64,000 nt of DNA, from positions 2,294,001-2,358,000 of the forward strand of contig OY101115.1 of assembly GCA_956465555.1 (NCBI GenBank). The letters are read 5' to 3'. The notes under the pieces are model-generated. The model was not told where the DNA came from, did no database searches, and was given only the letters and a program-made list of their open reading frames with translations. A program made the translations under genes and the position numbers. Source of the stretch: Nitzschia sp. pyKryTriq1 (taxonomy: Eukaryota > Bacillariophyta > Bacillariophyceae > Bacillariales > Bacillariaceae). Position 1 is the stretch's first letter; each line of letters starts with the position of its first letter. Of the stretch, positions 50,478-64,000 are shown piece by piece.

Positions 50478-51028
50478 TCTGTTCTAAAAGCTGGTATATG
50501 TCGTTTCTTGGTGCTCAGAAAACAAGAACCCGTAGGTTTGGCTTCACTGAAAAGACCTTCTCTTCTTGCTTGTGCAATTCAGAATGATGAGATAGATGAA
50601 GAAACAGAAGCGCGAAAGAAGAAATGAATAGCTTTCTCGTACCAGTAGACGGTAGACTACTGAAAGATATAAAAATGCTGCTTTTTTACTGCGTTTTGGC
50701 GTGTGTGATGTTGTGTGACGTGTGTGATGAATTTGTTTTGTGTTCGATCCAGTCGGACACCAACAATTCCTCCTTCCGTCCGTCCGTACGTCCTCGCTCG
50801 CCTCGATCTATCGGTCGGAACCTGTCGAATCCTAAAGTAAAATATATTCTTAAACTCCGTGACAATGGCAATGAGAACAACAGAAGACAGCGAAGGCTTC
50901 TCATGAGATGAGATTTTCCTTTCTAAAGCATGCCAAACTCATCCGAAACACCAAAAAAATAAGAATCATCCAACGACAAGCATCGACGACGACGCATCAT
51001 CTCTTCTTTCCTAACTCTTCCTCCAACA
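50478..51028. promoter_or_regulatory. Divergent region between fibrillin and galactokinase
   Basis: 551 bases with both promoters. It contains CGTCCGTCCGTACG near 50779-50790 and CGTACCAGTAG at 50638. TGTGTGATGTTGTGTGACGTGTGTGATG near 50701-50728 is a short degenerate direct repeat. No gene seen. Confidence 0.4.
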
Positions 51029-52417
51029 ATGACGCGCCACCGCTCTACTACTCCCTGTATCGTTGCATTACTTTTCGCCTACACGTACTGGCTGTCTATT
51101 GCAACCCGGGCAACAGGATACACCCTCACCATGGTTTCGGAATCCATGAAAGTCAAGCTTCAAGAGGCGTCCGAGCTCTTTCAAAAGAATTTTCCCGACG
51201 AGGAACCACCGACCTGCATTGCCGTCGCTCCAGGACGTGTCAATCTCATCGGTGAACACGTGGACTATACGGGGGGGTTCGTTTTACCATTTGCCATTGA
51301 TTATTCGACCGTTGTGGTAGGAAAAGGGTGCGTCAACGCCAACCAAAAATCATCAAGCTCTGGTCCCCAAGCCAAAATTCACTTCGTCAGTGGCAAATCG
51401 CCCGAAGATGTGGCAGAAGTCACGATCGACTCCCAGTCCACACCGCCCGAGAAGGTTACGTGGGAGACCTATGTCACGGGGACGGTCTTTCAGTATTTAG
51501 CAGATCTCCCTTCGGACGCCATCTTGGAATTGACGTTCAGTATTAGTGGTGACGTTCCTCTAGGATCAGGGCTTTCGAGCAGCGCGTCCTTGGAAGTGTC
51601 GGTAGCACGGTTTGTCGAAGCCATTCTGGGCGATGCCGCCTTTTCATCTTGCTCTCCCCAAGATCCCCCAGCCAAAATCCGAGCCCTACGATGTCAAAAG
51701 GCTGAAAATGAATGGGCGAAGTCTCCCTGTGGTTTGATGGATCAATACATTTCGAGCGCAGGACAAGAAGGAAGTTTGTTGTTGATTGACTGCACGTCTT
51801 TGGACTACCAAGAAACAAAAATGGCGACCACCGCAAATGAACCTGTCCTGGTCGTTGCCAACTCTAATGTCCAACACGATATTGGTGGTGGAGAATACCC
51901 AGTGCGAGTCCGTCAGTGTCAGACGGCCACCGAGGCTTTGCGAAAAATTAACCCTAAAATTTCGACACTTCGAGATGCCACCTTGGAAGACGTGGAGGCT
52001 GCCAAGACTGGAATGGACGAGATTAGCTTTTTGCGAGCCAAACATGTCGTGACGGAGAATGTACGAACACTGCAGGCCAAAGACGCATTGGAAAAGGGAG
52101 ACTGGAAGCTGGTAGGAGAACTCATGAGTGCGAGTCACACAAGCATGCGAGACGATTACGAGGTCAGCTGCGAGGAGATTGACATTTTGGTGGACATTGC
52201 CCAACAACAACCTGGTGTCTATGGCAGCCGACTAACAGGTGGCGGCTTTGGTGGGTGCACTGTCACTTTGGTCGATAAAGCGTACGCCCCTGCTCTCGTC
52301 GCTACTCTGATCAAAGAGTACAAGGCCAAGACAGGGAAGGATTGTTTCTGTTTCGAAACCAAGGCTGCTAGAGGGGCCCATGTACTTCCCATTGACACCC
52401 TGAGGGAGTTATCATAG
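51029..52417 (+). CDS. Galactokinase with N-terminal hydrophobic extension
   Basis: GHMP kinase that phosphorylates galactose at C1 with ATP (Leloir pathway), or a close relative using another sugar. It is intronless with 462 residues. Family motifs: APGRVNLIGEHVDYTGG at 67-83 (galactokinase signature), DVPLGSGLSSSASLEVSVA near 173 (the GHMP ATP loop), QSSAGQE-like GLMDQYISSAGQEGS, and GSRLTGGGFGGCTV near 403-416. The first 35 residues (RSTTPCIVALLFAYTYWLSIATRATGYTLT) look like a signal peptide or signal anchor, which cytosolic galactokinases lack. A second ATG at 51131 (MVSESMKVK) would make a normal 428-residue cytosolic enzyme. The frame choice therefore decides location. It is convergent with ORC6, 84 bases between stops. 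Confidence 0.9.
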   Translation: MTRHRSTTPCIVALLFAYTYWLSIATRATGYTLTMVSESMKVKLQEASELFQKNFPDEEPPTCIAVAPGRVNLIGEHVDYTGGFVLPFAIDYSTVVVGKGCVNANQKSSSSGPQAKIHFVSGKSPEDVAEVTIDSQSTPPEKVTWETYVTGTVFQYLADLPSDAILELTFSISGDVPLGSGLSSSASLEVSVARFVEAILGDAAFSSCSPQDPPAKIRALRCQKAENEWAKSPCGLMDQYISSAGQEGSLLLIDCTSLDYQETKMATTANEPVLVVANSNVQHDIGGGEYPVRVRQCQTATEALRKINPKISTLRDATLEDVEAAKTGMDEISFLRAKHVVTENVRTLQAKDALEKGDWKLVGELMSASHTSMRDDYEVSCEEIDILVDIAQQQPGVYGSRLTGGGFGGCTVTLVDKAYAPALVATLIKEYKAKTGKDCFCFETKAARGAHVLPIDTLRELS

Positions 52418-52501: not shown

Positions 52502-53749
52502 TCATGATTGTGCCTGCAAGAGTCCAAAAGACGCCAAAACATTCCTCGCGGCATGTTCCAACGCTCGTTCGCGAGTCACGGTTACTGCTTGGTCTGAATT
52601 ATCATCATCGCCGTTGGCGTCTTTTTGTAGTGCTATCGTGGCAGATTGTGTAGCCTCGGCTAGAACCTGTCGCTTCCATTCCAGAAACTTCGGCGAATAC
52701 AAAGATATTGGGTCCGACCGACGTGGATCTTCTTGGGAAGGTAAATTTTCAAAGGGATCGTCATTGAGTGATTCCATAAATTTAGCTCGTTCTTGTACTT
52801 GCTCCAACAAATCTTGCATATGAGCTGTACTTCGACTGGTTTTGGTAGATCTTTTTGTAGAGAGGCTGCACTCGGCGGCGACGCTAGAAGAGGAATCGTC
52901 CAGCACTGTACTGCCACCTTTGTTGTTCGTCCCAGCCTTGCGCTTTTTGGAACGTCCCTTTTTGTCAATCTCTGCTCTCGCTTCTGTTTCTTCGATGGCT
53001 TTTTCTTTCATATTTTCGATCATGGATTGAACGTGTTCCAAAATTTCGGCAAAAAAGCTCAGTGTAAAGTCCGTCGACACGTCCACTACTGTAGCAACTT
53101 GCAATTGCTTTCCTTCCTCCCCCTCGTCATCTTTGCGACGCGAGCTAGCAGTAGTGCTGCCTGCAGGAGAAACATCTTGTGTTGCGACCACGTAAAAACA
53201 GACTGCTTCGTAGGTACTGGAATTACGAGAAATGTCTCGGATCTGATCCGGGTTATTGCGGTTAAACCGAACAATCTGGTTCAAGAGACGTTGAGCCCGA
53301 ATGGCGACTCCATTCGAATCGGTTAGGTACGAGCCGAGTTTCATGGCCAATGAAGGGATCGAACTTCTGGTGGTAACAGCGGCGGCAGCTGAGGACGTGG
53401 TGGTCGATGAAGCGGCTGGTTGTTTGGAGGACAACGATGAGTTTTCGGTCTTGGATCGAAAGTTTCCCACGTTTCGGTGAAATTTGACAAAGTCCTTCTC
53501 CTTCATGAACGCCCCTCTGGCGAGTTTTTCCATGGGAAGCTTTATACCCTCCTGCTCTCGAGCGACATATTCCAGCAGGGCAGCCGCCCGTTTATGATCG
53601 TTATCACTTCTTCCAAAAGTGCCAATTGGATTATGGAATCTCAATCTACGGAGTTCACTTCGGGTGCTCTCCAAAATTTTGGCAGATAGGGGCGGGCTCA
53701 ACAACCCCACTTTACTTGCCACTGTGGCGACGGCATCCGAATTCGACAT
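52502..53749 (-). CDS. Probable origin recognition complex subunit 6 (ORC6)
   Basis: ORC6 is the smallest ORC subunit and has two TFIIB-like cyclin folds. The 415-residue intronless protein starts ASKVGLLSPPLSAKILES then ELRRLRFH, as in plant and animal ORC6 (…LxxKxxELxRL…). It has a first helical fold to residue about 95 and a Ser/Thr/Ala linker. The second fold includes IPSLAMKLGSYL, RAQRLLNQIVRF and STYEAVCFYVVATQ, which matches the ORC6 'FxAVAFYLxA' helix, and then VATVVDVSTDFTLSFFAEIL. The C-terminal half (lysine-rich KKGRSKKRKAG, disordered, coiled) is longer than usual. Sequence conservation of ORC6 is low in general, so this rests on pattern order and should be checked by profile search. 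It shares a divergent upstream region with the kinesin gene. Confidence 0.65.
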   Translation of the reverse strand: MSNSDAVATVASKVGLLSPPLSAKILESTRSELRRLRFHNPIGTFGRSDNDHKRAAALLEYVAREQEGIKLPMEKLARGAFMKEKDFVKFHRNVGNFRSKTENSSLSSKQPAASSTTTSSAAAAVTTRSSIPSLAMKLGSYLTDSNGVAIRAQRLLNQIVRFNRNNPDQIRDISRNSSTYEAVCFYVVATQDVSPAGSTTASSRRKDDEGEEGKQLQVATVVDVSTDFTLSFFAEILEHVQSMIENMKEKAIEETEARAEIDKKGRSKKRKAGTNNKGGSTVLDDSSSSVAAECSLSTKRSTKTSRSTAHMQDLLEQVQERAKFMESLNDDPFENLPSQEDPRRSDPISLYSPKFLEWKRQVLAEATQSATIALQKDANGDDDNSDQAVTVTRERALEHAARNVLASFGLLQAQS

Positions 53750-54311
53750 GGTTTTGATCGGGGGAAGGATTGAAGAATGGGCAACGAGCGACGAGGAATG
53801 AATGAATGTTTGATGATGAAGAATGAATGAGATACACAGTAATATGATGAGAGTGCAATGACAAGAAGCAAGAAGCGAGCGCGGGCGGTGGGAAAATTAT
53901 TTCTGGCGCGAAGACGCAGGCGCGAGGGCGGAAGAATGATCGAATGAATCATCATCGAATAGAATGACAAGAAAGGTATGTATGTATCTAAATAGGTAAG
54001 ATATGGGGTGTCGTCTTATCTCAATACTATACATACATATCATTCCAATTAATTCGAACTTCGATAATATTAGCCAACAAAAGTCCAGAGCTACAATTCA
54101 AAATTTTATTGCTCGTTGCTCGTCGTTTTTTGTCTCTCCCTCAACGACCGCGAACGAGCAACATCGCCTCTTCTGCTTTCTGTTGCCTGTTGCCTGTTGC
54201 CCTCTATCTTGATGAAGGAATCTGAACAAAAAACCTCTTGCATGAGCCTGTGACTTGTGTAACAAATCAAAGTATCCTACTGTAGTGGGAAACTGTAGTG
54301 TTTGGCCCAGA
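53750..54311. promoter_or_regulatory. Divergent region between ORC6-like gene and kinesin
   Basis: 562 bases. It contains GAATGAATGAATG-type repeats near 53795-53830, GGCGCGAAGACG near 53905 (GGCGCGAA is an E2F-type site, TTCGCGCC in reverse), and GTTGCCTGTTGCCTGTTGCC near 54182-54201, a 3-copy 7-base repeat. Both flanking genes are cell-cycle proteins, so shared control is plausible. Confidence 0.45.
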
Positions 54312-57300
54312 ATGAGCAGCAGCAGTAATGAAAATCGGACAACTCAGGTCCGTGTAGGAGTCCGTGTGAGACCGCTGGCATCGAAAGAAATCCAACAAGG
54401 CGGCAACATTAGCTTGTCGATCAACCCGCCTGCCTCTATCAGTATCGCGTCGCATAAGACTTTCACCTATGATGCCGTATTTGATTCTCAAACCGATCAG
54501 GATAGTCTCTACAACAGCGTTTCGACTTCCCTGCTGGACAGTTTTGTCGAAGGATACAATGCAACGGTACGTACTGACTTTATCGAACGAACAAATGAAT
54601 GAATGATGTATAACCTCGCGGTTGCATGGCAAAAGGTGGCAAAGGAAATGATTTTGAAAACTAACTGGTTGTTTTAAAAAAATCACATTTCGATTATTCC
54701 AGATTCTTGCGTATGGGCAAACAGGGTCGGGAAAAACGTACGTATGGATGGTATTGTGTGATGTCCGTGAGGAGTTGGTTGTATGGTCCACCAGCTTCGT
54801 CGACGACTCACTCATTTTCCTTGAATTCTTGATGTCTTAGGTATACTATGGGTAGTGAAGCGCATACTCAACCCGAGGGGTCCCCTCAGGTTGGTTTGAT
54901 CCCCCGTTTCATTTCGGATTTCTTTCGTAAGATGCAAGTAAAGAAGCAGGCATCCGATGATGCCTCAAATGTGGACGACAACTCGGGGGATAGTCCTGTT
55001 TCGGATGCTCCTTCCCCTCCTGCTCTGCTTGAGTATAGTATGAAAGCTTCGTTTTTGGAAGTATACGGCGAGGATGTTTTTGACTTGCTAGACTCGGAAC
55101 GAAAATCTCTTCCTCTTCGAGAGGATTCGGCAGGTGGTGTTGTCATTGCTGGACTGACGAGCTCGACTATTTCCAGCCCTGCCGAAGCATTGCATGTATT
55201 GCATGAGGGGACCAACAATCGTACAACTGCCGCCACATTGATGAATTTGACTTCTAGTCGGTCACATGCAGTATTTACAATCTATCTCACGCAAAAGACA
55301 AGGAGTCACGATCAAGTGGACGCCGTCTCTACATCCAAATTCACATTTGTGGACTTGGCGGGAAGTGAGCGCATGAAGAAGACCGGCGCTGAGGGGGAAC
55401 GAGCTCGTGAGGGCATCAAAATCAATGAAGGTCTGCTAGCGCTGGGAAATGTCATTAACGCATTGGCAGATGAAGAGCGTCTGGCGAAGGAGAAGACCAT
55501 CCATGTCCCGTACCGACAGTCCAAGTTGACCCGTCTTTTGCAGGATGCCTTGGGTGGCAATAGTCAAACTTTTTTCTTGGCCTGTGTCTCACCATCCGAC
55601 ACAAATGTCAGTGAGACTCTTTCAACTTTGAGATATGCAAATCGGGCTCGAAATATCCGAAATGCTCCAACCAAAAACCTGGATGCAACTTCTACAGAAT
55701 TGCAACGCTTGAACACGTTGACTCGAGTTCTGCAGAGCGAATTGATTAAAGCTCGTTTCCAAGGTGACGATGGAAAGGAGAACAAAACCGGATCAATTGG
55801 CGAAGTTGACGAAAGTCTCGCGAAACGATCGGACGTTGAAGAATACCTCGAGCTTCTCCACCGAACTGCTAATGAACTGTCGGGTGTCGACAAGGCGCCG
55901 ACGTACGTGTTTCAACCTATCACGGCAACGACGAATTCAGTATCCCACTTTCCATTGCCTAGAGGGCCTACAAAAGTGGAAACTTCCACTTCCATTCTTG
56001 AGGCAACCCCGAGCAAGGGTGCATCTGAACGTTTTGATGAATCTTTCCACATCGACGTTAACCCCGACGAAGACATCGCGATTTTGGATCGTCTCCTCGA
56101 ACTGCAACATCACGATCATGAGTACGACAAGGCAAAGAAGCGAGACGATGAGAGTCTGCGACAGATGGATGGTGAGCTTCAGAAAGAAGAGGCTCTCCTG
56201 CTGCACCTGCGAGAGAGTCTGAAAGCCTATCACAGTCTGAAACAGAAGTACGAGGAGCTACTGGCCGAAGTTCAGCAACTTGAAATGGAGAAAGAGAGCC
56301 TAGCCTCCAAGCTTGAAAAAGCAACAGCTGATCCAACAGCCGGAAACTCGGCAGCAATCAAGAGACAACTTGAAAGGGTAGAGCTCAGTCTCTCTCGTGC
56401 AAGACGCGAAACTTTGACCCATCGTCAGAAGTACAAGGAAGCAGAAGATCAAGCAAGGCGGTGCCAAGTCTTGGAGCGCAAGATAACCGACTTGAAGCAC
56501 GCAAAAACCAATCTGCTCAAGAAACAGAAGGAGACTGCGGCGAAATACAAGGAGCTTTCGGAGGCAAAAACCAAGGAGCTTCTTACCCTTCGGCGAAAAG
56601 AAAAGGCTGCAGATATGCGACTCTCGAAAATGAAGACGGAGATCCAACACCACAAAAGTAATCTTGAAAAAAGGAAACATTACTGTACAAAGTTGTCTGA
56701 TAAGCTCAAGCAGACCGAAGCGCACTTGATGAAACTTCTATCGATTCGTCAGAGAGATCTTGTTGAGCGAGCGAGCCTTATCGGGGGGAAGGGACTGCCG
56801 ATGGATACATTGCACGAAGATGACGAGAGCGCAAAAAGAAACAGGGACATCAAGTCTGAGAATTTGTGTAGCGAAGATCTCAAGTCCATCCGATTTATTT
56901 CTGATAAGATGGTATCGGAAAAAATTGATCATGCGGTCCTTCTTGCGCGATACAAAGAACGTGTAGCCGAATACAGCGAGACCATGAGACTTGTTGTGGC
57001 CAATGTCAAGGCATTAAAAGAGAAAGATGAAGCCATGGACTCAGAAGAGGGAGACAGTGAAACTCAAGATAGCTTGGAGGACATCAAAGAGGCAGTCGCA
57101 GATCTGGAATTAAGACTTGAGCTTCTCGGTACAGAGGTAAAAGAAATGGAGTCTTTGTTGCCTGACGAGGCGAAGCAGTTGAGAGACGAGGAGGCAGTTA
57201 AAAAGCTCATGACCAAATTGCCAGCCCTCGCACTGCGCAAGATGCTTTTTGAATCCTTTACAAAGTTGGTAGAGGCTGAGGTAAATCAAACAGATTCTTG

Positions 57301-59841
57301 GTGGTGCCCCACAATCTCCGAACCAAGCGTTCTCACACTACCTTTGTTTGCCATCTTCGTAAGACTGACCGGAAAGCCAGCCACGAGCTTGTGCAACGAA
57401 AGGACGCGGCACTATTCAGCTTGGAGAAGGAATTAGACATCATGAGTGGTAAAGTCGAGGTGCTCACCAGAGACTTGACTGGCCGTCGTGTTTTGATGGA
57501 ATCTGGAGAAAATTTGTTTGACGTGCTGAAGGCGACGAAAGACAAGAACCTCACACTAGAGCAAGACCTGATAGTAGCACGAGATGAAGTTCTCGAAAAA
57601 AGGAAGAACTTTGTAGACTTCAAAGATAAATTTGATTTGCAAGTGTTGGAGCTTGAAAATACGAAGGATGCATTGGTACTTGCCGAGACCTCCCTGTCAA
57701 AATTAAATGGCTCGGTTGAGTCCGAGGTTACCCTGAAAGAACTACAAGAAATCTGGAAAAAGCTTGGTGTCGACTACGAAACACGAGGAAAGATACGTGA
57801 TGAGATCAAATCGTGTCTCTCCGATACCTGCACAAGGCACCTAGATGAAGCTTGCAGGCTCAAGTCAACGACGGAAGAAGAAGTAGTCATGCTTAGAGCA
57901 AAGAGGGCTTCGATGCACTCTGCGCTGGGAGTGCCACAGCAGAGACCTGTGGAGGGACTGGGGCTCCTGGAAGAGGCAAAAATCCTGCGGCAACAGGTAG
58001 AAAATCTCGAGACATCATTTAATTTGGCCAATGCCCGCCGGGAACGGATTGTTTCAGATATGATCAGTTTGTCGTCAGCTCTAGAGATTTCAAAAGAGGA
58101 TCTTCCTGAGAACCTACGAACCCTGATGGATCAAATCGAGAAGGTAAATCCTTCAAGCAATACCATCGGAAGACTGCGACGAGCGTCCATTATGGAAGGT
58201 GTGCTAGCAATGGTTGATTCTTTAAGTCAGAATCTAGGCGAAGGATCTGAGACAGCGAAGCCTGCGTCATCTGCACGAGAGGGAATCGATCTCCCTGCAG
58301 GAAGCTTGGAAGAATCCTTCCTCTCACGCTGTGAGAGTGATGTGGCACAACTAAGAGTCCGCAAATCTCAACTACTCGTCAAGAACCGTGAGAATATGCA
58401 AGAGATTAGTGGTATTGTGAAGGACTTACATTCCTACGTGCCGGATCTTGTTGGCTTGGTAGAGATGGTCTTGAAGTCGCACGGAGACGGAATTCCGATC
58501 TGGTGGAACAGCGAAAAGGCCAGCTCTCTGTTGAAGAAAGTTTCGACAGCATCTCCACAGACAGATAGCGAAGCTTCTGAAACACGTTACATTGAAGCAA
58601 TCCAAACATCTCTTTCAGCGATCGCGCGTTCTCGTGAAATGATTTCTTCTGTCCTACGAGAAATCGTCGAAAAGGCCCAACAGACGCTGCTGGATATTGT
58701 TGGAAGGGAGCTTGACGCCAGCGAGGCTTATGCCAGTTTCCACGACGCCCTTCTAAAGTTGCCATCTCTTTCTGTGGATTTTAGCCACGCTTGTATTTCC
58801 GAAATGGAAGCTCTTGTACTTGGTGCAGAGGCAATGACACAAAGCGAGATCGAGGCCTTGACTGTGGTCTGGGAAGCCCTGAAGGTATCCTCTGAGGAGC
58901 GTCGAACCTTTTGGGGAAGGATTGATAACCCAGATGATTTTGTAAAGGAAGGTCAAGATAACCCCTTTGACAAACTATGTGAATCCCTATCAGGCAATAC
59001 GGAAGCATGGATTTCATCTCTCATTGTCAAGGGCCGGAAAGTCAACGAGGAGCTAGAGGTGAAGCTTGCAAAGCTTGACGCCATTCATACGGAGGTCGAA
59101 AGACTACGTTCGAAGCAAGACACAAAGAGCCAAGTACTTTCACTCGACTCTGAGATACGGATCATGAATACCAAGCTCCATGATTTCGAGGAGCTACAAT
59201 GCAGCAAGCAAAGACTTCTCACGAAGAAGTCAGGGAGTACAGCGCTGCTAAAAGAAGCCCGATTCAGGAAACAAATGAAAGCAAAATTTGTCGCCAAACT
59301 TGGCCAACTTGCTTCTCTTCTCCGCTCTTGGGAGCAGGAAGAAGGCCATCCATTTGACTCGTCTCTTTTGAGCGATGACGTGCGGATGCTGCTGAATGAG
59401 CCTGACAAAATGGAAGACTGGATCGAAAAGAGGACAAGATTGATGCCGTCGCGCACAGTTCCAACAGCGACCCCGCAAAAACGGCCTTTCGAAACCGAAG
59501 CGCGGACCAGTAGTCTATCCTCTTCATCAAGAGAACCCAGCCGCTCCGCCACTGGTTTGACGCCCCCAAGAAAGAAGTTGGCAACATCTACACGGCATCC
59601 TATGCCTCCAAAGCAGACAACATCAGATTCATCGACCGCACATGGTGTCAAAACAAAACTTTCTCCAGTTCGGAAGAGAAAACCACAAGACCCATCGGAA
59701 AACAGTTTGCAGAAGAGTCAACCTTCGACAGCAAAATCACCCATGAAGAATCGTGGTCCAAAGCTGAGACGAAAAGAGTCGGCTGCACTGCCACCTTTTG
59801 GTAGAATTCTTTCCGAGCTTTCTACCCCTGAAAAAAGGTGA
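54312..59841 (+). CDS. Kinesin-4-like motor fused to a PRC1/Ase1/MAP65-like region (1735 aa)
   Basis: Exons 54312-54566, 54703-54737, 54841-57280 and 57364-59841 join in frame (introns 136, 103, 103 and 83 bases, all GT...AG). Motor: VRVGVRVRPL, P-loop GQTGSGKT (residues 90-97), SSRSH (234-239), VDLAGSER (267-274), KINEGLLALGNVINAL, YRQSKLTRLLQDALGGNS and TLRYANRARNIRN. The last three suit kinesin-4 (KIF4/chromokinesin). Coiled coil spans about 490-760. From residue about 911 (exon 4) helical segments resemble PRC1/MAP65: LQEIWKKLGVDYETRGKIRD near 1036 and RKSQLLVKNRENMQEIS. Next come VWEALKVSSEERRTF and, most clearly, LLKEARFRKQ (1538) leading to LLRSWEQEEGHPF, the family's 'LLKEEK.RK...WE.E.G.PF' signature. 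The end is basic, Ser/Pro-rich (TPPRKK, SPVRKRK), as in PRC1 tails. In animals KIF4A and PRC1 are separate partners. Motor call is certain; the PRC1-like call is strong but by eye. Confidence 0.85.
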
Positions 59842-59933: not shown

Positions 59934-61686
59934 TCACTCTTTTTTTAACCAAAGAACAAGGACGCAAACATTATCAGCCGACCCTCGTTCAAGAGCTTCG
60001 TTAGCGACGATTCTTGCCATTTCCTTTCGTTTGTCAAGCCGTGAGAATACTTGACTTTCTGTGGTCAGAACTTCCTGCACGTAATCTACGACTTCCTGAC
60101 TCGACATAACGTCCCATAATCCATCGCTCGCAAGCAACACGAATTGGTCGTCTCGTTCCGAAACTGGAAAAGTCATAATTTCAGCCTCACTGGTCACGAC
60201 AGGCTTTGCAAATCGATCACCGATCGCCCGAGAAAGCGAGAGATCACGTACTCGATAAACCTGCCCATATGGGTCCCATTCCACCTCCTCCCCCATGGCC
60301 TCAATCCTCTTTCTCTCTATCTCGTCACCCGGTTTGTGATCCCTCGTCATGTCGACGGCTTTCCCATCACGACACAAGATAGCCCGACTGTCACCCACAT
60401 TCGCCGTTAAGAGCGTCCGCTTTCCATCCTTAGCGACATGGAGCACGACACACACGGCGGTACTTCCCTGATAGACCAAATCGTCCAACTTCATGATAGC
60501 GTCTTCTACTTGCTCCAGCCCTCGTTGGAGGGCTGCAATATGACTGGATTTGGACGGGATTTCTTTTCGTTCCACACCAAAATCATTCTGCTGTTCCCAG
60601 TGTTTTTTGGCTAATTCCTCCATGTACAATTCATGCAGGCGTTCCTGGAGAACCGTGCTCACCTCGGCACCCCCATGCCCATCAAATACTGCCACAAATC
60701 GGCCGCCGTTTTCTATTTTGTATGTATCCTCCATAGTCCATCTGGCTCCTTGAAAGATTCCCTCTGATACCTGGATCATAGTATTGTGCAAAGAAAGAAA
60801 TAGTTTGAGTGAGGTGACAAAACGGATAGCCGCCAAGCGAGAGGAGTATTACTTGTACTTGTATTTGACCATGAGATATCTTGATGGTTCCAGGGGGGGG
60901 GGTGTGGTGTACAATCAGTATCATACTTACTAGATATGGATTTTCAGTAGCATCTTTTTGTACTTGTTGCACATCTTTCTCCGCCTGTAGCTTGCTGAAC
61001 AGAAACATGGGTTTCGTTTTGGTGGATTTCAATTTACCGCCACCGCCACCGCCATCGCCCCCTGGAGTGAATTTTGGTGCTTCCTGGTTGCTGCTGGTGG
61101 TGGTGGTGCTGCTGGTGCTACTACTACTGCCGGTTGTAGACGACGAAGCCGATGCTAAAAAGCACAAGGCAAACGCAACCATGGCGGAGAGCTGCTTTCG
61201 CGTGGACTGGGACTGATCTGACTGTTGTTGTTGTGCTGCGTGTACATCTTCTAGGGTGATAATAGCAGCATGCCGTCTGAGATATTCGAGCCAGAGTGCT
61301 CCCGACGCGGGCGATTTTGATTTCTTGCCAAATACTGGCTCGGCCGCGGAGGCTGCTGCTGCAAGGCTTCGGTGCCGCTGCCGCAGCACAGGATCCGAAG
61401 AGAATTTCCGGAGCGAGACGGATGATGATCGATGAGGCGAGGTAGAAGAATAGGTGGATGGCGATGTCGCCCATACAGGAGCGCTCAATATGGATCCACG
61501 GGTGCTACTAATACTGCTACTAATACTGCTGCTGCTGCTGCTGATGGCACCAGCGCTCGAAGAATAATGATGAGCCAAACCAATGGAAGGAGGATTCTTC
61601 ATAGCAAGGGTTCTGGTTTTACGGGCTCGACAAGACGAACTTGCGACAAAGCGCGATGAAGTAGCTGCGCAACAAGATGTCGCCAT
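59934..61686 (-). CDS. PP2C-family protein phosphatase with N-terminal extension (530 aa)
   Basis: Metal-dependent Ser/Thr phosphatase. Exon 1 is 61686-60931, the intron 60930-60771 (160 bases, GTAAGT...CCAG), exon 2 60770-59934; the frame before 61686 begins with a GTG, so the ATG at 61686 is used. The catalytic domain lies in exon 2: GARWTMEDTY, VAVFDGHGGAEVS, STAVCVVL, TANVGDSRAIL, DHKPGDEIERKRI, SLSRAIGDRF, LASDGLWDVMSS and GSADNVCVLVL. All the metal-binding aspartates (EDT, DGHGG, DGLWD, DN) are present, so it should be active. Exon 1 adds 252 residues: a Ser/Arg-rich start like an organelle presequence, a hydrophobic stretch (LSAMVAFALCFLASASSS), and a long Ser/Thr then Gly run. A membrane-tethered or mitochondrial phosphatase is likely. 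It is convergent with the kinesin, 92 bases apart. Confidence 0.88.
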
Positions 61687-62152: not shown

Positions 62153-62250
62153 TCTTCTGACGGTCAGAAGAAATCTTCTGACCGTCAGACGAAATCTTCT
62201 GACTGTCAGAAGAAATCTTCTGACTGTCAGAAGAAATCTTCTGACTGTCA
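62153..62250. repeat. 21-base tandem array of a 15-base palindrome (4.7 copies)
   Basis: Units start at 62153, 62174, 62195, 62216 and a partial one at 62237. The unit is TCTTCTGAC(G/C/T)GTCAGAAGAAA; the second unit has CAGACG for CAGAAG. Inside each sits the palindrome TTCTGAC-N-GTCAGAA, with a variable middle base, so single strands could form hairpins and proteins could bind as dimers every two helical turns. It is about 100 bases upstream of the small frame at 62349. Confidence 0.9.
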
Positions 62251-62639: not shown

Positions 62640-63081
62640 CAGAATTTCAAGCCTGCGCGTGTCACCGCGCGGAGCAACAATCAGGAGGTTTGACGTGGAA
62701 AGCGAGAAACCCCCGCGCGCAACAGCGCGAAGATATGTAAAAAACGAGGTTACGGGTTTCTGCACGTACGGTACACTACCAGTACGAGTACGGGAGGTGA
62801 TCGAGAGAGAAAAAGAGAGACGCCGGGAGGGGAAAGGGGAAAGATGATGATGAAGATCCTCCAATAACGCGACCGCGACCGGAAAGAAGGCAAAGGATGA
62901 GACTGGAGTACAAGTAGTGCAGAGAGCAGAGCGGTCCTTTTCATTCGACCTTCCAATCCGGGTACAGGCAGAGCTTAGAGATTTGACTACGAGCAGCCGC
63001 ACTGTATCTCGTTCAATTGCTATCAGATCCCAATCTACGCATCGAAGCTGCTAGCTGATACATAACACCCGATAACACCCG
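62640..63081. promoter_or_regulatory. Upstream region of the stomatin-like gene
   Basis: 442 bases. CGTACGGTACACTACCAGTACGAGTACGG within 62764-62792 is a further GTAC chain, about 290 bases before the start codon. GATAACACCC occurs twice in tandem right before the ATG (AACACCCGATAACACCCGATG, 63063-63083). Purine-rich GAGAGAGAAAAAGAGAG near 62801. No gene seen. Confidence 0.45.
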
Positions 63082-64000
63082 ATGAGTCGACACTTAATAG
63101 CCCGATCCCTGGCATCGGCGAGCCGACCACCTTTCCCGTCTCGTTCCACTGCGGTGCTCTCGTCCCAGGCCCAGAATGCCACGAGAACTTTCAGTTATGT
63201 TTTGGATGGATGGGGAGGCGGCGGTGGTATGGGAAGCGCTTGGCAGTGGCCCATCACCAAGTCCAACACAGTATTCAACATCGTTCCTCAAGGGTACAAG
63301 TACGTCGTGGAACGCTTTGGCAAATTGCACTCTATTCAGGATAGCGGGTACTTCTTCGCCATTCCCTGGGTAGATCAAATTGCCTATGTTATTGACGTTC
63401 GTGAGCGAGCCATGGATATTCCTCCTCAGGCTGCCATCACGCGAGATAACGTGTCAGTGGAGGTGTCCGGGAATTTGTTCGTCAAGTTTCAAGATCCCCG
63501 GGCAGCCGCCTATGGAGCATTGAATCCGCTGTACAGTGTCACACAGGTATGTAGACCAGGTCAATCCTCGTGAACTGTTGCTTCTGATCGTCTCTTGCAC
63601 CAACCCTCACTTACTGAACGATTGATTGATTGATTGATTATTATTTGTTGGGATCACCTACGATTCGTATGTACCTCTCTCTGGCACATGATAGCACGCA
63701 CAATCGGCCATGCGTTCGGCAATTGGAGAAATGGAATTGGATGAAATTTTGCACGGACGAGCTCGGTTGAATGCGCTCATCAAGGGAAGTTTGCAAGAAG
63801 CTGCGCTTCCTTGGGGCTTGGAAGTCCGTCGCTACGAGATTACAGAAATTACACCCGATCATCAGATTCGGATTGCCATGGACAAGCAGGCGGCAGCGGA
63901 ACGTGATCGACGTGAGCACGTTTTGAGAGCTGAGGGAGACAAACAGAGAGCACAACTGACATCAGAGGGAGTAAAGATTAGCCTGACGAATGAGTCTGAG
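63082..64000 (+). CDS. Stomatin-like protein 2 (SPFH domain), mitochondrial, 5' part
   Basis: STOML2/SLP2 organises cardiolipin-rich domains of the mitochondrial inner membrane and interacts with prohibitins. Exon 1 is 63082-63546, the intron 63547-63694 (148 bases, GTATGT...ATAG, with a GATT repeat), exon 2 63695 to the window end; phase 0, frame restored. The start (MSRHLIARSLASASRPPFPSR) is an amphipathic basic presequence. The SPFH domain follows: VPQGYKYVVERFGKLHSIQD, GYFFAIPWVDQIAYVIDVRE and VSVEVSGNLFVKFQDPRAA. Exon 2 continues HAQSAMRSAIGEMELDEIL, LPWGLEVRRYEITEITP and the coiled segment MDKQAAAERDRREHVLRAEG. All are characteristic of SLP2 rather than erythrocyte stomatin, which has a membrane hairpin. 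The C-terminus lies beyond the window. Confidence 0.9.

Follow-up and report, generated by a model that had tools for sequence, protein, structure and literature searches.

We analysed a window of 64,000 nucleotides from the diatom Nitzschia sp. pyKryTriq1 (contig OY101115.1, positions 2,294,001 to 2,358,000; assembly G000, 40.65 Mb in 20 contigs), which carries on its forward strand a kinesin gene at 54312-59841. The four exons of this gene join into a frame of 1735 residues with no internal stop, running from the start codon at 54312 to the stop codon at 59839-59841. Exon 1 (54312-54566) encodes residues 1-85 and the start of the motor, exon 2 (54703-54737) carries the P-loop region GQTGSGKT, exon 3 (54841-57280) encodes the remaining motor and a coiled-coil stalk up to residue 910, and exon 4 (57364-59841) provides a further 825 codons and the stop codon. 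All three introns (54567-54702, 54738-54840 and 57281-57363) are of the GT-AG type, and the last one, of 83 bases, separates the stalk from the MAP65-like exon 4; if it were retained, the open frame would end at 57436. A sequence-only reading of the same DNA had removed this 83-base intron to reach an in-phase exon of 825 codons, had noticed a MAP65-like segment from residue 1538, and had proposed that a single gene fuses a kinesin-4 motor with a PRC1/Ase1/MAP65-like module. The joined frame agrees with that gene structure, LLKEA begins at residue 1538 of the 1735-residue protein as claimed, and the proposed fusion is borne out by the comparisons described below, in which KIF4 was the best solved relative of the motor and the module aligned with stand-alone MAP65.

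The kinesin hallmarks GQTGSGKT, SSRSH, DLAGSE and HVPYRQSKLT are all intact in the fusion protein, and the Pfam kinesin motor domain (PF00225) covers residues 18-369 (54363-55657, split by introns 1 and 2) with an E-value of 7.8e-104. In a search of solved structures, KIF4 scored 316 bits, followed by an unclassed kinesin-like protein (283 bits), KIF7 (260), OSM-3 (243) and KIF11 (242). This ranking among solved structures supports a motor of the kinesin-4 type. The stalk contains a probable KIF21A_4th region (PF25764) at residues 519-684 (56105-56602), which, against a cut-off of 33.1, scored 34.7 bits in exon 3, 33.0 in the whole protein and 39.5 in a search of the genome. In a motor tree retaining 122 of 128 motor sequences (P0178, P0238, P0249, P0255, P0257 and P0258 were left out as too gappy), the window gene clustered with proteins assigned by name to Nitzschia sp. 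Nitz4, N. inconspicua and Bacillariaceae sp.; the deep branches of this tree are weakly supported. The tail of KIF4A is cysteine-rich. Since there are just 11 cysteines in the 1735 residues of the fusion protein, it has no tail of this kind.

Exon 4 (residues 911-1735), for which a comparison with MAP65_ASE1 (PF03999) had been suggested in the sequence-only reading, alone matched this Pfam family at 36.7 bits (E 2.8e-9), above the curated cut-off of 26.9, while exon 3, including the coiled-coil stalk, gave no MAP65 match in Pfam at E up to 1. When exon 4 was used as the query, 47 of 7999 scored candidates reached E<=0.01, and 42 of these were aligned with the window exon; MAP65_ASE1 matched 35 of the 43 aligned sequences at E<0.01 (best 1.7e-12). 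Using hhalign, whose E-values here are pairwise and not database E-values, the profile of these 43 sequences aligned collinearly over 439 columns with a stand-alone MAP65 profile built from 120 diatom-type proteins (E 2.5e-6, about 19% identity), such that exon-4 residues 121-697 (57724-59454) correspond to MAP65 residues 98-564. The C-terminal parts of 73 full-length fusions gave 1.8e-7 against the same profile. The controls yielded 0.021 and 0.086 for the fusion against reversed MAP65, 0.027 for the reversed fusion against MAP65, 0.027 and 0.0081 for the fusion against the kinesin stalk, and 0.18 for the stalk against MAP65. According to the profile alignment, an LQEIW motif at the N-terminus, a rod and a C-terminal end follow one another in the fusion module as in stand-alone MAP65. 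A profile covering the 58-residue N-terminal motif of the fusions (LKELQEIWKKLGV... in the window; exon-4 residues 118-175, 57715-57888) matched 95 of the 120 stand-alone MAP65s at E<1e-3, and neither it nor a profile of the microtubule end of the fusions matched any of 119 reversed decoys.

Several results weigh against this homology. The whole 1735-residue protein scored 25.4 bits for MAP65_ASE1, slightly below the cut-off; the microtubule-end profile of the fusions matched just one of the 120 stand-alone MAP65s; and, of 167 fusion sequences, the stand-alone diatom MAP65 profile matched only 9 at E<1e-3, the window exon 4 itself not being among them. When the exon-4 profile was compared with solved structures, PRC1 came out on top, with an E-value of 0.013, close to those of coiled coils, and a search of the same structures with the single exon-4 sequence gave nothing at E up to 10. 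The weak scores against solved PRC1 and the empty single-sequence search are what would be expected if exon 4 were a generic coiled coil without MAP65 ancestry. This explanation is nonetheless very improbable, since the stand-alone MAP65 profile matched none of the 167 reversed fusion sequences at E<1e-3, the reversed decoys of the two local profiles were equally silent (0/119), the kinesin's own stalk lacks a MAP65 match, and the profile match is collinear from end to end. In addition, among the 159 window open frames of at least 100 aa, the exon-4 frame was the sole match to two fusion profiles at E<0.1, the next-best frames giving 0.64 and 0.79. We reject a coiled-coil artefact on the strength of the decoys, the stalk and these open frames, and the data support the view that exon 4 encodes a diverged yet homologous PRC1/Ase1/MAP65 module, beyond mere coiled coil.

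With the whole protein as the query, 2358 of 8000 scored candidates were relatives at E<=1e-10, and the analysis covered the 120 of them that were listed. Where these carry a name, it is usually that of a kinesin or 'hypothetical protein', and by hand count 25 of the 120 have both kinesin and MAP65_ASE1 in their database annotation. Some annotations contain the MAP65-like part alone, for example P0044 of Cylindrotheca fusiformis (746 aa), as might be the case if a kinesin and a MAP65-like protein were two adjacent genes read as one. Against this, the two parts are separated by just 83 bases in the window, and when the window protein was aligned with P0168-P0239, all 73 full-length rows crossed the joint, gaps making up less than half of each row between residues 881 and 950. 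Furthermore, P0168 (Kryptoperidinium foliaceum, without the first exons), P0184 (Extubocellulus) and P0239 (Triparma pacifica, Bolidophyceae), all named from transcript collections, are fused. The joined frame, the fusions from transcript collections and the 73 rows together lead us to reject two misread genes, an explanation to which we give almost no weight, and we consider it confirmed that the joint is real and that the motor and the MAP65-like module lie in one gene. P0173, P0197 and others begin at the position matching the start of exon 3 here, which suggests that these relatives have a single uninterrupted reading frame on the DNA. K. foliaceum is a dinoflagellate by taxonomy; its fusion copy groups with those of diatoms in the motor tree, consistent with the diatom endosymbiont of this species.

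Separate members of both families are also present in the genome. MAP65_ASE1 matched two places, the window and a stand-alone protein of 636 residues on contig C4 (PF03999, E 2.3e-63), and, judging from the names of the records, Nitzschia sp. Nitz4, N. inconspicua and Fistulifera solaris each have a fused and a stand-alone MAP65 protein as well. KIF21A_4th exceeded its cut-off at the window and in a second kinesin on contig C2, with a weak third place. The best solved relative of the C2 kinesin is again KIF4 (212 bits, vs 195 for KIF7), no match to the MAP65 profiles was found in it, and the motor tree places it without firmness. Given the C4 MAP65 and the C2 kinesin, the fusion coexists with separate members of both families. 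The sequence-only reading had counted a separate bona fide PRC1 together with a kinesin-4 of normal length in close relatives against the fusion; such a situation exists here, and what it refutes is replacement, not the fusion itself. A role of the fusion as a substitute for PRC1 is thus ruled out by the stand-alone MAP65 on contig C4.

The part of exon 4 equivalent to the microtubule-binding end of PRC1 lies at residues 480-700 (58801-59463), as judged from alignment and conservation, and is followed by a basic Ser/Pro-rich tail (59455-59838) with a conserved PFGRIL-like motif at its end. Aligning the exon-4 profile with solved PRC1, with numbering counted by hand, placed R617 (59212-59214) at R377 and K630 (59251-59253) at K387, two PRC1 residues with a role in microtubule binding. 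In the full-length rows, the R617 column is R in 72 of 73 and K in the remaining one. The K630 column fits a crosslinking module less well, with a basic residue (K or R) in 50 of the 73 rows and E in 19 (K 46, R 4, E 19, Q 2, D 1, G 1); a motif search, which recognised the site in 68 of these 73 sequences, counted K 44, R 4, E 18 and Q 2, and the 43-sequence alignment K 39, R 3 and N 1. With E at the position of K387 in 19 of the full-length fusions, microtubule binding may vary among the groups of fusions.

These substitutions bear on an alternative in which the fusion is real and the module is of MAP65 descent, but no longer crosslinks microtubules and has become a tail for dimerisation or docking, which might recruit stand-alone MAP65, for instance. 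We consider this unlikely, although three results speak for it: the E substitutions at K630, the stand-alone MAP65 in the genome, and the fact that the microtubule end is the part most diverged from stand-alone diatom MAP65 (1 of 120). On the other hand, the microtubule end is strongly conserved among the fusions themselves, the majority of the invariant columns in an alignment of fusions (A1) falling within residues 424-670; R617 is nearly always R; and in the distant fusions P0273, P0278 and P0280 the microtubule end is the very part that matches Pfam MAP65.

The fusion is present in diatoms and in a bolidophyte. The relatives P0240-P0286 (47 listed) were outside the build of both local profiles; at E<1e-3, 10 matched at both MAP65 ends, 3 at the N-terminal motif only, 3 at the microtubule end only and 31 at neither. 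Many of these 31 are about 1000 residues long, and some of them may have been cut by introns or contig ends. Distant fusions P0273, P0275, P0278 and P0280 exceed the Pfam MAP65 cut-off and P0282 falls slightly below it (26.7); less favourably for MAP65 descent, P0239, P0276, P0277, P0279 and P0281 had no Pfam MAP65 match. The motor tree places P0276 and P0279 together with two named brown-algal proteins, P0277 of Scytosiphon and P0283 of Ectocarpus. P0276 and P0279 match the local microtubule-end profile (4.2e-12 and 6.6e-11), while the named brown-algal proteins P0277 and P0283, of about 1050 residues, gave no match to it; it is therefore probable, though not certain, that brown algae share the fusion. 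In a clade of 33 members (support 0.99), the short proteins of Thalassiosira and Skeletonema nest with fused ones, which suggests that the short proteins lost the MAP65 part after duplication. Thalassiosira profunda has a fused (P0203) and a short (P0268) kinesin-4 protein recorded on one contig or scaffold, and so does Skeletonema menzelii (P0193 and P0264); each species offers a natural comparison of the protein with its crosslinker and without it. The sequence-only reading had suggested that the fusion would be an adaptation of diatoms. The fusion does occur in many diatoms, but this description is too narrow, because a bolidophyte and probably other ochrophytes carry the fusion.

Elsewhere in the window, which contains 666 N bases, we noted a galactokinase gene (50966-52414, + strand; GalKase_gal_bdg and GHMP kinase domains) and, upstream of the kinesin gene, a 464-residue open frame (52505-53896, - strand) without a Pfam match at E 0.001. 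A protein phosphatase 2C gene (59937-60848, - strand) lies immediately downstream and is convergent with the kinesin gene, and a tandem array of 4.7 copies of a 21-base unit (62153-62250; 94% matches) and an exon with a Band 7/SPFH domain (63079-63570, + strand) are also present.

Taken together, the joined frame, the homology of both halves and the conservation of the joint across diatoms and a bolidophyte, all of them seen in the sequence, point to one chain that combines a kinesin-4-type motor, a stalk and a homologous MAP65 module; this chain probably acts as a central-spindle motor-crosslinker beside the stand-alone MAP65. In such a scheme, the fusion protein would dimerise, its motor would move toward microtubule plus ends, and the MAP65 module would grip a second microtubule in antiparallel orientation. 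Motor and crosslinker would thereby reach the overlaps of the central spindle together at a fixed 1:1 ratio. The order along the single chain would be motor, stalk, PRC1 N-end, rod and microtubule end, giving the motor a crosslinking tail of its own, and the protein could set the length or the sliding of antiparallel overlaps alongside the stand-alone MAP65 and not in its place. Function, namely the midzone location, the joint delivery of both activities and the binding of microtubules by the module, is here inferred. The motor-crosslinker might instead act away from the central spindle, on microtubules of the cytoplasm or of cytokinesis, for instance. The presence of the fusion in a bolidophyte, and probably in brown-algal relatives, implies that it does not depend on a spindle of the diatom kind and did not arise for that spindle alone; but both animal partners act in the midzone (PMC6200392), and we regard a role elsewhere as rather unlikely.

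The diatom central spindle is a classic system of spindle elongation. In isolated diatom spindles, a pan-kinesin antibody inhibits elongation, and the motor is known only in this way in a review, where the midzone matrix that anchors the kinesin is also speculated to include Ase1 (PMC5192431). A kinesin with a built-in Ase1/PRC1 module is a concrete candidate for both the motor and the anchoring matrix. An ancient ochrophyte fusion may have made the PRC1-KIF4 pair one self-contained motor-crosslinker, which in diatoms could be the kinesin and part of the anchoring matrix of the paracrystalline central spindle, hence the long-sought elongation motor or length setter; we advance this only tentatively, and hold it to be possible and not probable. 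Diatoms are amenable to transformation and editing. Both halves are of known kinds, and what is new is the joined architecture. We found no kinesin-MAP65 fusion in the literature searched, including passages of two kinesin surveys (PMC2867816, PMC1434745), which leaves room for an earlier mention elsewhere; the second survey notes that its diatom kinesin models were short, perhaps through poor gene models.

Three known systems can be set beside the fusion. Like the kinesin-4 family (KIF4, KIF7/27, KIF21), it has a motor closest to KIF4 among solved structures and a probable KIF21A_4th stalk, and it differs from that family in that its tail is a MAP65-like module. With the PRC1/Ase1/MAP65 family, represented by a stand-alone diatom protein (L001), it shares the order of its elements, but the identity is only about 19%, and the fusion is longer and joined to a motor. 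The animal PRC1-KIF4A complex resembles it in both kinds of partner and in the proposed order of contact: the C-terminus of KIF4A, itself poor in microtubule binding, is proposed to hold the PRC1 N-terminus, and PRC1 in turn links the two microtubules (PMC6200392). The animal complex consists of two separate proteins, whereas the fusion is one chain, and the two form a 'Rosetta stone' pair: proteins that are binding partners in animals make up a single polypeptide in a different eukaryotic branch, arranged as has been proposed for the complex.

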